From: Collinsella aerofaciens | GTDB lineage: Bacteria > Actinomycetota > Coriobacteriia > Coriobacteriales > Coriobacteriaceae | Reading direction: 5' to 3' | Length of the DNA stretch: 64,000 nt | Assembly: GCF_015552075.1 (NCBI RefSeq) | Contig: NZ_JADNDZ010000097.1 | Location: 1 to 64,000 of the forward strand | In this document: in pieces, positions 41,081 through 62,220 of the stretch | Layout of the letters: each line of letters opens with the position of its first letter | How positions within the stretch are numbered: position 1 is the first letter of the stretch | The notes under the pieces: generated by a model | Told to the model about the DNA's origin: nothing | Databases searched by the model: none | The model's input: the letters and a program-made list of their open reading frames with translations, nothing else | Position numbers and translations under genes: made by a program

Positions 41081-41460
41081 GTCTCGATCTGTAACATCTA
41101 GCGGCCCTTTTCAATCCTAGATGTTACAGATTGAGATGAAATGATCGGCTGCGGACGTTTGTCTCAATCTGTAACAACTAATCGGCAAATTGGGGTCCAG
41201 ATGTTACAGATCGAGATTAACCGCGAAGCCTCATCCGATAATCTCAATCTGTAACACCAGGCCCACATCTAACAGCCAAGGCGTTACAGATCGAGACAAA
41301 AGAAACCACCACAAAGGTGCCTGTCCCCAATGTGGTAGTTTTCGAAAAAAGAAGCCGCCCCGATAACAGGGGCGGCATCAAGCAAGTCTATTTATTAGCG
41401 TCCCTCAAGACCCAACGAGAACGCAGAAATGTAGCCCGGAGCCACCCTTTGCCGAACGCG
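41081..41460. repeat. Palindromic repeat block B (three 57-bp units, 80-bp period)
   Basis: Units begin at 41081, 41161 and 41241 and are each 57 bases, so the 80-base period holds across all three. Units 1 and 2, and the 23-base spacer between them, resemble the two units of block A. The third unit has no partner there. The tail has CCACCACAAAGGTGCC, then GCCGCCCC-GATAACAG-GGGCGGC (terminator-like), then sequence matching block A. Confidence 0.85.
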
Positions 41461-56424: not shown

Positions 56425-57615
56425 CTAGACTGCGCATGCAGCCGTAGGTCTTACGCCCTCTCCACAAGCGTTTGCGGCGTCTGCCGCGGTTCCCGCATGC
56501 CCTGCGGTACCTTCCAGGATTCTCCTTCCCTCGCGGGCGATGTTGACGGCGGCGTTCAGGTCGCGGTCGTGACGCATGCCGCACGCGGGGCAGTCCCATA
56601 CCCGTTCGGCCAGCGTCAGTCCCCTGTAGACGTAACCGCATGCGGAACACGTCTTGCTGGACGGATAGAACCTGCCCACCCTTACGAAGCCGCGCCCCGA
56701 CCATGCGCATTTGTACTCGAGCTGGCGCGCCAGCTCCGACATGGCGGCATCGCCCACGGCCTTGGCGAGGCGGCGGTTCCTCTGCATGCCCCTGACGTTC
56801 AGGTCCTCGACCGCGATGTTTTGGCTTTCTCCCACCGCATGCGTCGTGAACTTGTGCAGGGCGTCCTTCCGCCGGTTGGCAACCTTCTCGTGCGCCCGCG
56901 CGACCCTGACACGCTGCCTGGCGCGATTTGCGGAGCCCTTCCGCTTGCGCGAGAGCCGCCGCTGCTCCCGCGCCAGCCTCCTCTCGCTCCTTTGCAGGTT
57001 TTTGGGGTTGGGCAGGCGCTCCCCCGTGGAGCAGGTGGCTATGTCGTGTATTCCCGCATCGACTCCCAGGAACCCGACGGTCGGGGCCGGCGCGTCCGTG
57101 GCGGGGACGTCCGCGCAGCATATCGCCACGTAGTACTTGCCGCTCGGCACCTGCTTGACCGTCGCGGACAGGACGCGCCCCTCCACGGGACGGCTCACCC
57201 GCGCCCTGACGGTCCCCAGCTTTGGCAGCCTCACGTGCCTGGCGTCGATTATCCCGACGCCGTTCGTGCGGTAGCTCTTCCTCCCCGCGCGTTTGGACTT
57301 GAACTTCGGAAAGCCCACCTTGCCTGGTGCGCGGAAGAAGTTCTTAAATGCCTTGTCCAGGTCGCGCAGGGACTGCTGCAGTGCCATGGAGTCCACCTCG
57401 GAGAGCCACGGCGCGTCCGCCCTCTTCCAGGCGGGGATCTGGGTGATGTAGGAGTTGATGTGCCTCGATTTGCCCGTCCACGCGTACTCGTCCCGCCTCA
57501 TCGCCAGCACCCTGTTGTAGACCCAGCGGCAGCAGCCGAAGGTCTTCTGCAGGAGGGCCTCCTGCTCGGCGCTCGGGTATATGCGGTACTCGAAGGTCTT
57601 GTCCATGGCCCTCAC
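56425..57615 (-). CDS. tnpB: RNA-guided nuclease TnpB
   Basis: A 396-residue protein, GTG start overlapping tnpA (an in-frame ATG is 9 bases on). The RuvC residues are visible: D186 in GVDAGI, E270 in AVEDLN and D352 in HDRDLNAA. The four-Cys zinc ribbon CSAC...CPAC is at 323-345. All catalytic residues are present, so it is likely active. It supports transposon retention by cutting donor sites with a guide RNA. Confidence 0.93.
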   Translation of the reverse strand: MRAMDKTFEYRIYPSAEQEALLQKTFGCCRWVYNRVLAMRRDEYAWTGKSRHINSYITQIPAWKRADAPWLSEVDSMALQQSLRDLDKAFKNFFRAPGKVGFPKFKSKRAGRKSYRTNGVGIIDARHVRLPKLGTVRARVSRPVEGRVLSATVKQVPSGKYYVAICCADVPATDAPAPTVGFLGVDAGIHDIATCSTGERLPNPKNLQRSERRLAREQRRLSRKRKGSANRARQRVRVARAHEKVANRRKDALHKFTTHAVGESQNIAVEDLNVRGMQRNRRLAKAVGDAAMSELARQLEYKCAWSGRGFVRVGRFYPSSKTCSACGYVYRGLTLAERVWDCPACGMRHDRDLNAAVNIAREGRRILEGTAGHAGTAADAANACGEGVRPTAACAV

Positions 57616-58007
57616 GCGTTCCTCTGGTCCTCGATATACTGCCTGACGGCCTCGGGCGTCGCCCCGCCGACGGTCGAGACGAAGTAGCTGTTCGTCCAGA
57701 GCGTCGGCAGCTTGCGCTTCAGCTGCGGGAACTCGGCGCGCAGGTCGTGGCTGGTCCTGCCCTTGATGCGCTTCACGGCCCGGTGGATGCCGAACTGGGG
57801 GTCGACTGAGACGAGCATGTGCACGCGGTCGGGCATGACCTTGATTTCCCTTATCTCGAAATCGAGTTCCTCCGCGACCTCGTGCGCGATCTCCTCGAAG
57901 CGGGAGCCGATGCCGTCCACGAGCACCTTCCTGCGGTATTTCGGGCAGAAGACCACATGGTAGTCGCAGTCCCAGACTATGTTGTCGTTGCTCCTGTATC
58001 TATCCAT
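57612..58007 (-). CDS. tnpA: IS200/IS605 transposase TnpA (possibly inactive)
   Basis: A 131-residue Y1 transposase starting at the ATG at 58007. It has NIVWDCDYHVVFCPKYRR, a PDRVHMLVSVDPQFGIH segment and the catalytic Tyr in VRQYIEDQ. The family HUH motif is usually H-V-H at this place (PDHVHLL). Here the first residue is Arg (codon CGC), one transition from His (CAC), which should weaken metal binding. Other members with this Arg could exist. Confidence 0.9.
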   Translation of the reverse strand: MDRYRSNDNIVWDCDYHVVFCPKYRRKVLVDGIGSRFEEIAHEVAEELDFEIREIKVMPDRVHMLVSVDPQFGIHRAVKRIKGRTSHDLRAEFPQLKRKLPTLWTNSYFVSTVGGATPEAVRQYIEDQRNA

Positions 58008-58208
58008 GAAAACAGTATACCACTTGCAGCCGTATATGTATATCGGCTGACGCCGATGCGCCTTATATCCCCATATCTGAAGAAAGGGGTTTTGCGGCGC
58101 TTTTGATAAAAGAGCCGCCCGCGAGTGGTTGCTTTGCGGGCCGCTGGGTATAAGCACGGTCGTACTGAGTTTTACGCAGCCGAGCCGCGTCGCATTATGG
58201 AGGTCACC

Positions 58209-59512: not shown

Positions 59513-59541
59513 CAGCACACACTTCAATGAAGGGGAGCCAC

Positions 59542-62220
59542 ATGCGGCATGTGCATATTCATGTGACGGGCATCGTGCAGGGCGTTGGCATGCGGCCATT
59601 TGTGTATCGCGAGGCTATGGCGCATGGCATTTGCGGCTGGGTGCTCAACGCGGGCGATGGCGTGCACATCGAGGCGCATGCTTCGGTCGAGGCACTCGAC
59701 GGCTTTGTCACCGCGCTTTCTGAGCACGCGCCTGCCGCGGCCCGCGTTGAGCATGTCGCTGTCGCAGACCTGGAGCCCGACGTTTGGGATGCCGACGATG
59801 AGCAGGCCTTTCGCATCGTAGCGTCGCAGGATCAGACCATGCACACGACGCTCATCTCCCCCGATATCGCCACCTGTGACGACTGCCTGCGCGAACTGTT
59901 CGACCCCGCCGACCGACGCTATCACTACCCCTTTATCAACTGCACCAACTGTGGGCCGCGCTTTACCATCATCCGGTCGCTGCCCTATGACCGAGCGGCC
60001 ACGTCGATGGATTGCTTTCCCATGTGCCCCGAGTGCGCCGCAGAGTATGGTGACCCGCTTGACCGGCGCTTTCATGCGCAGCCCGATGCCTGCTTTGACT
60101 GCGGGCCGCATATTACCTGGCGCGAGGCGGCAGGCGGCATGGTGCTCGAGAGCTCAGAGGCGACGCCGGCTGTCGGCGACACGCGCGAGTCTAGCGACGC
60201 TATTATCGAGCGCTGTGTCGAGCTGCTCGAGGCCGGCGGCATTGTTGCCATCAAGGGCCTGGGCGGATTCCATCTGGCTTGCGACGCCGCCAACGAGCAA
60301 GCAGTAGTCGAGCTGCGCCGTCACAAGCGCCGCAGCAACAAGCCGCTTGCCGTTATGGTGCGCGACCTTACCGATGCCGAGCGCCTGTGCCGTGTCAACG
60401 ACGCCGAGCGCGACTTGCTGGCCGGCAGCATCCGCCCCATCGTGCTGCTGCGCCGGCGTGGTGTTGGCATGGGAGATTCCTTCGATGCTCTCGCACTTGC
60501 GCCGTCCGTTGCGCACGATCTGCCCGAGCTCGGCGTCATGCTCCCCTATACCCCGCTTCAGCATCTGCTGCTTGCCGCGGCAGAAACGCATGGCATGCAC
60601 GCGCTGGTTATGACCAGCGGAAACTTGAGCGAAGAGCCCATCGAGACCGATGACGATCTTGCCTGGGAGCATCTCGTTGCCGCCGGCATCGCCGACGCGC
60701 TGCTCGGCAATGACCGCGCGATCCTCTCGCGCTACGACGACTCCGTGGTACGTGTGGTCGACGGGGTCGTTATGCCCGTGCGCCGCGCTCGCGGGTACGC
60801 CCCGCAGCCGTTGCCGCTGCCGGCACTCGCCAGCGCCGCGCCCTGTGTGCTCGCCTGCGGCCCGCAGCAAAAGGCCACGATCGCACTCACGCGCGAAGAC
60901 GCGAATGGAACGTCGGCCTGTTTTGTGTCGCAGCATATCGGCGATGTCGAAAACGGTGCGACTTTCGATGCGTGGAATGCGGCACGCACGCGACTGGAAG
61001 ACCTTTTTGACCTAGCGCCCGCCGCGCTGGCCTGCGACTTGCACCCCAGCTACCTATCGAGTCAGTGGGCACGCGAACAGGCGCGCGAGCGCAATCTGCC
61101 GCTTATCGAAGTCCAGCACCATCATGCGCATATCGCGAGCGTGATGGCTGAGGCTATCGCCACAGGACAGCTTGCACCCAATGCGCGCGTACTTGGCATC
61201 GCCTTCGATGGAACGGGCGCTGGCACCGACGGAACCATTTGGGGCGGTGAGTTTCTTGTCGCCGGCCTCGCCGATTTTGAGCGCACCGCGCACCTGCGTA
61301 CCTGGGCACTCCCCGGTGGCGCCGCATCTGTGCGCGACGCCCGACGCAACGCCTTTGCCCTGCTGAGCGAACTCGGTCTGCTCGAGCACCCGGGTGCCGC
61401 GGGGATCCTGAGCAGCCTCGATGAGCAGACGCGCAGTATCACGACCACGATGATCAAGCGAAACATCAACAGCCCGCGAACGAGCAGTATGGGCCGTCTG
61501 TTTGACGCCGCGGCGGCAATCCTGGGCATCTGCGGCACTGCAACCTACGAGGGCGAACCCGCCATCGAGCTCGAGGCCGCCGCTTGGCGCGCTCTTGACG
61601 GCGAAAACAGCCATTTCACCGGCAATCAGGCGGGTGTATCCGCATCCGCTTCAACATCGCTGGACAGTTTGTTCAGATACGTATTAACTACTGACCCCCT
61701 ATCCGGCATTTTTGCCTCAGATTTGGCCAAAAAAGGCTCTCCAGACACCCTATTTGCGGCAAATATGGACGCTGGATACCCCAAATCGACCCATTTGAGG
61801 TGTTCGCGGACGGCTTTTGCCACCCAGAGCCCATCACAAAAATACGTATCTGAACTAACTGTCCAGGCGGCCTCGGATAGCTCCCTCGTTCTGGACCAAA
61901 AACCACTTTTTGAGGCGCTTTTGAGTGGAATCGAGGCCGGCACATCGTCCGACAGGCTCGCACTCGAATTCCATATCGCCATCGCGCGCTCCTCGACACG
62001 CGCCGCAAGCAAGATCTGCACCCGCGAGGGCATCGACACCGTCGCGCTCTCGGGCGGCGTATTCATGAACCGACTTTTGCTCCAGCTCCTCACCCGCGAG
62101 CTCAAAAACGCCGGTCTTGCCGTCTTGGTTCCCCACACCGCGCCCGTTAACGACGGTTGCATTGCCTACGGCCAGGCGGCCGTCGCCCGCGCTCGCCTCG
62201 CACAGGTCGCACAGCAGTAG
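59542..62220 (+). CDS. hypF: Carbamoyltransferase HypF with in-frame repeat insertion
   Basis: An 892-residue protein, ATG after AAGGGGAG. The order is an acylphosphatase domain (1-90; GIVQGVGMRPFVY), a zinc-finger region with Cys pairs (CDDC, CTNC, CPEC, CFDC; about 108-190), a YrdC domain (about 200-390; KGLGGFHLACDA) and a Kae1-like domain with HHHAHIAS and DGTGAGTDGTIWGGEF. Residues 707-775 are encoded by a 207-bp palindromic element that interrupts the Kae1-like domain, with no stop. The ending ALSGGVFMNRLL and DGCIAYGQA is normal. It makes the cyanide ligand of NiFe hydrogenase from carbamoyl phosphate. Activity with the insert is uncertain. Confidence 0.92.
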   Translation: MRHVHIHVTGIVQGVGMRPFVYREAMAHGICGWVLNAGDGVHIEAHASVEALDGFVTALSEHAPAAARVEHVAVADLEPDVWDADDEQAFRIVASQDQTMHTTLISPDIATCDDCLRELFDPADRRYHYPFINCTNCGPRFTIIRSLPYDRAATSMDCFPMCPECAAEYGDPLDRRFHAQPDACFDCGPHITWREAAGGMVLESSEATPAVGDTRESSDAIIERCVELLEAGGIVAIKGLGGFHLACDAANEQAVVELRRHKRRSNKPLAVMVRDLTDAERLCRVNDAERDLLAGSIRPIVLLRRRGVGMGDSFDALALAPSVAHDLPELGVMLPYTPLQHLLLAAAETHGMHALVMTSGNLSEEPIETDDDLAWEHLVAAGIADALLGNDRAILSRYDDSVVRVVDGVVMPVRRARGYAPQPLPLPALASAAPCVLACGPQQKATIALTREDANGTSACFVSQHIGDVENGATFDAWNAARTRLEDLFDLAPAALACDLHPSYLSSQWAREQARERNLPLIEVQHHHAHIASVMAEAIATGQLAPNARVLGIAFDGTGAGTDGTIWGGEFLVAGLADFERTAHLRTWALPGGAASVRDARRNAFALLSELGLLEHPGAAGILSSLDEQTRSITTTMIKRNINSPRTSSMGRLFDAAAAILGICGTATYEGEPAIELEAAAWRALDGENSHFTGNQAGVSASASTSLDSLFRYVLTTDPLSGIFASDLAKKGSPDTLFAANMDAGYPKSTHLRCSRTAFATQSPSQKYVSELTVQAASDSSLVLDQKPLFEALLSGIEAGTSSDRLALEFHIAIARSSTRAASKICTREGIDTVALSGGVFMNRLLLQLLTRELKNAGLAVLVPHTAPVNDGCIAYGQAAVARARLAQVAQQ
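61660..61866. repeat. 207-bp palindromic mobile-type repeat inside hypF
   Basis: Terminal inverted repeats of 26 bases (61660-61685, starting CTGGACAGTT; 61841-61866, ending AACTGTCCAG) differ at one base. Inside is AT-rich non-coding-like DNA. The length is exactly 69 codons and the element starts on a codon boundary, so hypF stays open. No clear target duplication is seen by eye. It fits a MITE-like non-autonomous element. Confidence 0.88.

Follow-up and report, generated by a model that had tools for sequence, protein, structure and literature searches.

Palindromic elements of 105-146 bp are known from Rickettsia, where they lie in frame within conserved genes and are tolerated there (PMC10969869, PMC2229807). 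In the REPIN/RAYT arrangement an inverted conserved pair with a variable spacer is found dispersed and near one gene, with end types each near their own homologue of that gene (PMC3116915). The lengths of Paramecium IESs have a period of about 10 bp, interpreted as a sign that the DNA loops within a transpososome-like complex (PMC3464196); studies of helical twist at transposon ends and at repressor sites are also cited in that article. The insert described below, which lies in hypF of Collinsella aerofaciens, is a member of a palindromic element family that is dispersed in Collinsella and recalls each of these systems in some respect. As in Rickettsia, a small palindrome has been inserted in frame and has left a conserved gene unbroken. 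Unlike the Rickettsia elements, to which no sequence link is known, the Collinsella family belongs to another phylum, has hypF as the only genic site found for it and holds no conserved peptide, its interiors being unrelated and mostly without an open frame and its TIR consensus carrying a stop in the hypF frame. Like REPINs, the elements occur as inverted conserved doublets with a variable spacer, and several end types each lie beside their own gene homologue. The associated gene, however, is DUF559-like and has no match to the Y1 tyrosine transposase that defines REPIN/RAYT systems, and the elements measure ~170-215 bp, with simple 24-34-bp arms and a helical comb of spacings. In Paramecium IESs, too, a helical length comb has been taken to indicate a looped transpososome, although these are eukaryotic sequences that a domesticated piggyBac transposase removes during development. 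As a protein insertion the hypF event is ordinary; the family behind the insert is not.

The window, that is, the whole 64,000-nucleotide stretch of DNA that was analysed, contains the following features.

59527..62220, plus strand: hypF, hydrogenase maturation carbamoyltransferase, 897 aa, from the ORF call; intact save for the insert.
61661..61865, plus strand: palindromic element, 205 bp, family copy 'C', in frame in hypF, from comparison with other copies.
61661..61684, plus strand: left TIR, TGGACAGTTTGTTCAGATACGTAT, from alignment of 74 unique family elements.
61670, plus strand: T in place of the family-consensus A, giving the codon TTG and not a TAG stop; in hypF copies only.
61685..61841, plus strand: interior spacer, without conserved sequence or amino-acid constraint, from copy comparison.
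61842..61865, plus strand: right TIR, ATACGTATCTGAACTAACTGTCCA, from arm pairing and copy comparison.

The first-pass annotation had placed an in-frame palindrome at 61660-61866 in hypF, and this is borne out: the arms at 61660-61685 and 61841-61866 are complementary at 25 of 26 positions and separated by 155 bp, 61660 is the first base of hypF codon 712, and the 207 bp make up 69 codons free of stops. The size of 207 bp holds for the segment on the codon boundary, whereas the element proper, with TIRs of 24 bp, is 205 bp long, ending in TGGACAG...CTGTCCA, the outer C/G pair being flank as judged by other copies. A chance palindrome is ruled out, none this strong having appeared in shuffles or at control loci. 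Within the 64-kb window the end motif has no second copy (0.00 expected from shuffles). Pfam matches in HypF are Acylphosphatase, zf-HYPF, Sua5_yciO_yrdC, HypF_C and HypF_C_2, the last of which is split by the insert. Modelling the insert as a loop, a check that had been proposed, produced a low-confidence loop between better-modelled parts, with pLDDT mostly 23-48 in the insert and mostly 84-95 in the adjoining parts of the predicted HypF structure.

Comparison across strains shows that the segment is not universal to hypF orthologues, being absent from 26 of the 30 hypF loci examined in detail and present in four (G000, which is the window's own genome, G013, G022 and G036). All four inserts occupy the identical place, in the Kae1-like domain, where they lie in a linker that varies between proteins. 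In the hypF frame the family consensus, CAGTTAGTTC, reads AGT TAG TTC, that is, a stop. Exactly four of the 74 unique elements show an A/T asymmetry at TIR position 9, and these are the four hypF copies, in which a T stands opposite the consensus A partner in the coding-direction arm (window position 61670) and yields TTG; the other 70 elements lack it. This single A-to-T change in the hypF copies keeps the reading frame open. Differences between the G022 and G000 inserts are distributed 16/19/16 over codon positions 1/2/3, unlike those in the hypF core, where 45 of 65 fall at the third position, and this even drift indicates that the frame is held open and the peptide unconstrained. Mutual divergence of the four inserts, about 11-27% overall, is roughly neutral and rules out a recent insertion into hypF, one of the possibilities that the first-pass annotation had raised. 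Another, a new function, finds neither amino-acid-level constraint nor anything beyond the low-confidence loop in the model, and the even codon-position divergence together with the low model confidence rules out that the insert is a conserved protein domain. The suggestion of a neutral linker agrees with equal drift at the three codon positions and with the variable linker site. The insert is apparently a tolerated and harmless neutral flexible loop and represents no new domain and no recent lesion. The first-pass annotation did not note the A-to-T change, the helical spacing, the linked DUF559-like gene or the Rickettsia precedent.

The ends of the hypF copies behave differently from their interiors. 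Between G036 and G000 the inserts differ at 30 positions, every one of which lies in the interior, the 27-base arms being identical (chance about 1e-4 by position alone), and arms left unchanged despite interior drift point to a DNA-level constraint on the ends. In a tree of the hypF halves the carriers do not group stably as one clade, and hypF seems to undergo recombination; for this reason one old insertion with losses is indistinguishable from spread by recombination, and the carriers may have arisen by either, the tree fitting both.

The genome of the window (G000) consists of 126 contigs, and element copies were counted by pattern searches. The end motif is found at several other positions in this genome, two of which hold complete copies of 203-204 bp. 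It lies upstream of ligA, to either side of a gene between prs and pth that encodes 375 aa, and at contig ends. More copies are present in named Collinsella genomes, most of them C. aerofaciens. In G037, G042 and G043, copies at non-orthologous sites number roughly 12-16 per genome. The earlier view of the insert as a mobile-type element with other copies thus proved well founded, the same TIR being dispersed in its own and in related genomes, and the family, short, TIR-bounded, lacking a transposase and present in many dispersed copies, shares these attributes with MITEs. The 24-bp ends are conserved genus-wide, while the interiors vary by locus and are recognisable between orthologous loci; most elements are closed in all reading frames, and the interiors share no peptide. 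Three end types occur in this family, termed P1 (ACGTAT, TTTGTAT and ATATGAAGGT), and both arms of an element match in type. At orthologous loci the TIRs are 3-6% diverged and the interiors 7-35% on average, with a maximum of 51% and no more than 3 gap columns, which implies that something preserves the ends after insertion. Literature searches on palindromic repeats in Collinsella and on DUF559 with inverted repeats found the system undescribed in the titles and abstracts returned.

The ligA site bears on possible mobility. Upstream of this gene, 11 genomes have copy A and 12 others lack it, and the empty alleles carry a short different sequence, GATCGCGCGATC, at the position of the element. 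The ligA junctions, the sole empty site compared, show no clean target-site duplication. An inversion of the interior was not seen at this site.

The spacing of the ends follows the turn of the DNA helix. P1 elements have lengths of 173, 183, 193-194, 202-205 and 213-215 bp, and over a scanned range of 5-20 bp the best period is 10.4-10.5 bp (R 0.90; 74 unique elements, 22 interior clusters). A second end family, P2 (GGCAAATATGAGTACTGTTAC), which is unrelated to P1 and occurs only in aerofaciens-group genomes, has spacings of 169-170 (29 cases), 179-181 (28) and 161 (1), with R 0.95. Related ends in three genomes of another genus and in one of a third are spaced by 139, 149-150, 159-160 and 170, on the same comb and in the same register, and none of the 91 P1-type spacings taken together lies more than 2.5 bp off the ~10.4-bp comb. 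Taking one value per cluster or locus (n=39) gives R 0.94, where 4000 random sets reached at most 0.54, the safest claim, given the shared ancestry of orthologous copies, being that distinct length classes lie whole turns apart. From such a comb running from TIR to TIR it follows that one protein probably bridges both TIRs on the same helix face. Length conservation at orthologous loci was also considered as proof of selection and is weakened by the flanking gene distances being stable as well.

A candidate for this protein is encoded by the 375-aa DUF559-like gene between prs and pth, which is flanked by elements E and D. The elements flank the gene in pairs, and no single TIR pair encloses it; in a diverged species the order is prs, element, homologue, element, with an end type of its own. 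All 13 genomes with a close orthologue of the 375-aa gene have elements, though gene and satellite distributions are phylogenetically confounded, and elements without a close gene orthologue occur in G001, G002, G005, G006, G008, G020 and G043. Of 39 full-length homologues, 34 have a palindrome nearby, often with its own TIR, compared with none of 38 control loci, and full-length homologues beside palindromes with other ends are found in Collinsella as well as in other genera; of the more distant DUF559-like loci, only 6 of 21 lie beside a palindrome. A P2-linked paralogue is present in nearly all genomes with P2 sites, G022 having neither the sites nor the paralogue and G002 having P2 sites without it. 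The G043 assembly, which is 99% complete, has at least 20 third-type end motifs and no close homologue of the linked gene.

The protein itself has a confident predicted structure (pLDDT 87.8). Across 24 homologues, E228, D279 and E290 are invariant, the last in a motif E290-Y-(N/K), against the D...E-x-K of PD-(D/E)XK nucleases; its third residue is N in most members and K in L225. The Pfam DUF559 cut-off of 20.6 bits is missed, two members scoring 12.5-14.5 bits, and the best DUF559 E among all 24 members is 0.0019. Weak, non-significant similarity in the catalytic region links the protein to PD-(D/E)XK nucleases and to the catalytic domain of the Vsr-like homing endonuclease I-Bth0305I (sequence E 0.21; fold probability 0.80, E 0.48), from which it differs in an extra N-terminal domain and, in most members, in E-Y-N replacing E-x-K. 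A fold search with the 375-aa protein returned nothing significant, and NCBIfam and PADLOC searches returned no match. Between proteins associated with TTTG-type and ACG-type ends there are 13 fixed differences, all in residues 31-175 and outside the nuclease-like half, a confinement which suggests that the N-terminal part may be what recognises the ends.

The explanation considered probable, if well short of certain, is that the hypF insert is a satellite of a palindromic family working with the DUF559-like protein, by bridging of two ends and spread in trans. The protein, with its predicted PD-(D/E)XK motif, would most likely bind the two inverted 24-bp ends; the bound ends would be bridged on one helix face, such that only whole-turn spacings work, and the sequence between them would be free to drift. 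Copies would have been dispersed in trans, mostly to intergenic positions but on one occasion to the Kae1-like domain of HypF and its variable linker, where a single base change maintains an open frame and the 69 residues ride along as a flexible, neutral loop. What has been observed is the family with its copies, their presence and absence, the helical comb, the conserved TIRs, the association of gene and palindromes, the base that avoids the stop and the neutral codon pattern; cognate-protein binding, bridging and mobilisation in trans are inferred. Against this explanation stand the lack of a clean target-site duplication at the ligA site, the elements in genomes that have no close gene orthologue, the weak DUF559 match and the fold search without significant result, the confounded distributions, and TIRs that have stayed conserved where the loci are old and fixed, as simple transposition would not demand; mobilisation in trans with later maintenance is nonetheless favoured over a fixed looping site. 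The arrangement can be read as REPIN/RAYT-like in layout with an unrelated nuclease-like protein, and palindromic family and nuclease-like gene look like a new two-part selfish or regulatory DNA system. A more tentative proposal, about which doubt slightly prevails, is that they represent an undescribed Coriobacteriia class of mobile or satellite DNA, in which a DUF559-like nuclease gene and its co-evolving palindromes would form a looped, whole-turn paired-end complex that mobilises or maintains them. If true, uncharacterised Coriobacteriia DUF559-like proteins gain a concrete DNA partner, a second, unrelated protein family joins the REPIN/RAYT type of arrangement, and the lengths amount to a natural helical-twist experiment within bacterial chromosomes. 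In hypF, selection seems to act on an insert solely for an open frame, and cleanly so, and the pairing of TIR variants with gene variants makes end recognition directly testable.

Fixed paired binding sites of the DUF559-like or another DNA-binding protein, forming regulatory or chromosome-architecture loops and copied only rarely and anciently, are an unlikely alternative that nevertheless deserves weight. TIRs and spacing kept at orthologous loci despite the interior divergence given above are what such sites predict, copies do lie upstream of ligA, pth and the DUF559-like gene itself, and lac-type repression loops, according to references in PMC3464196, likewise need helical phase. The stable flanking gene distances, however, make the orthologous length conservation weak evidence, and the many non-orthologous copies per genome, the presence and absence differences at ligA and a copy that lies within a coding sequence and lacks any promoter-like match over the surrounding 500 bp all count against fixed sites. 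It is improbable that the elements are ordinary MITEs of some DDE transposase, with the DUF559-like gene often adjacent but playing no part. The size, the TIRs and the dispersal of the elements agree with this, as do the length and twist constraints reported for IS50 ends (Goryshin et al. 1994, as cited in PMC3464196), but palindromes with differing TIRs track one gene family across several genera, interiors differ between loci and are not deletion remnants of a single parent, site A lacks a clean target-site duplication, and no transposon bordered by family TIRs was encountered. A structured RNA element, a long hairpin with the RNA as its functional part, is highly implausible even though either strand folds much more stably than shuffled sequence (z about -8.3), as the folding comes mostly from the TIRs, a 10.4-bp length comb has no reason in an RNA loop, and a search with the elements matched no Rfam family.

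Several other repeats accompany the family. At G000 contig ends, copies are interrupted by an insertion sequence (IS) of 1.5 kb that contains a transposase-like ORF of 445 aa and has target duplications of 8 bp (TAATGGAT, and as read from contig ends GTCTGGAC and TTCGCCGG). Five of its insertions fall within palindromes, which belong to two TIR families, and another lies beside one in G007, the loci concerned being L309, L310 and L314 (G008, G001) and the G000 contig ends C5, C41, C55 and C84; the palindromes look like an insertion hotspot for it. In P2 elements, for example those at L295, L303 and L320, the flanks outside the common ends are partly complementary and locus-specific (ACCCYGTGGNCAAAAAA ... 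TTTTTTGNCCAC), as if the outer arms co-varied or the target had been palindromic. A third palindromic end family, GGTTTATTTTGGCAGGTTTTATC, for which no linked gene was identified, has 28 matches in G000, one complete pair among them, and paired copies beside pth with a spacing of 140-141 (for example, G000 C41:2479-2642). About 30 bp to the left of element A, at L168:4243-4276, lies a ~34-bp repeat with many genus-wide matches, often in inverted pairs ~54 bp apart, which constitutes another palindromic repeat family. Within the window, two adjacent minus-strand ORFs at 56425-58157 are TnpB/TnpA-like, of IS200/IS605 type as judged by reading only, and a perfect 18-bp inverted repeat, TCTCGATCTGTAACATCT, spans 135 bp at 41082-41216.
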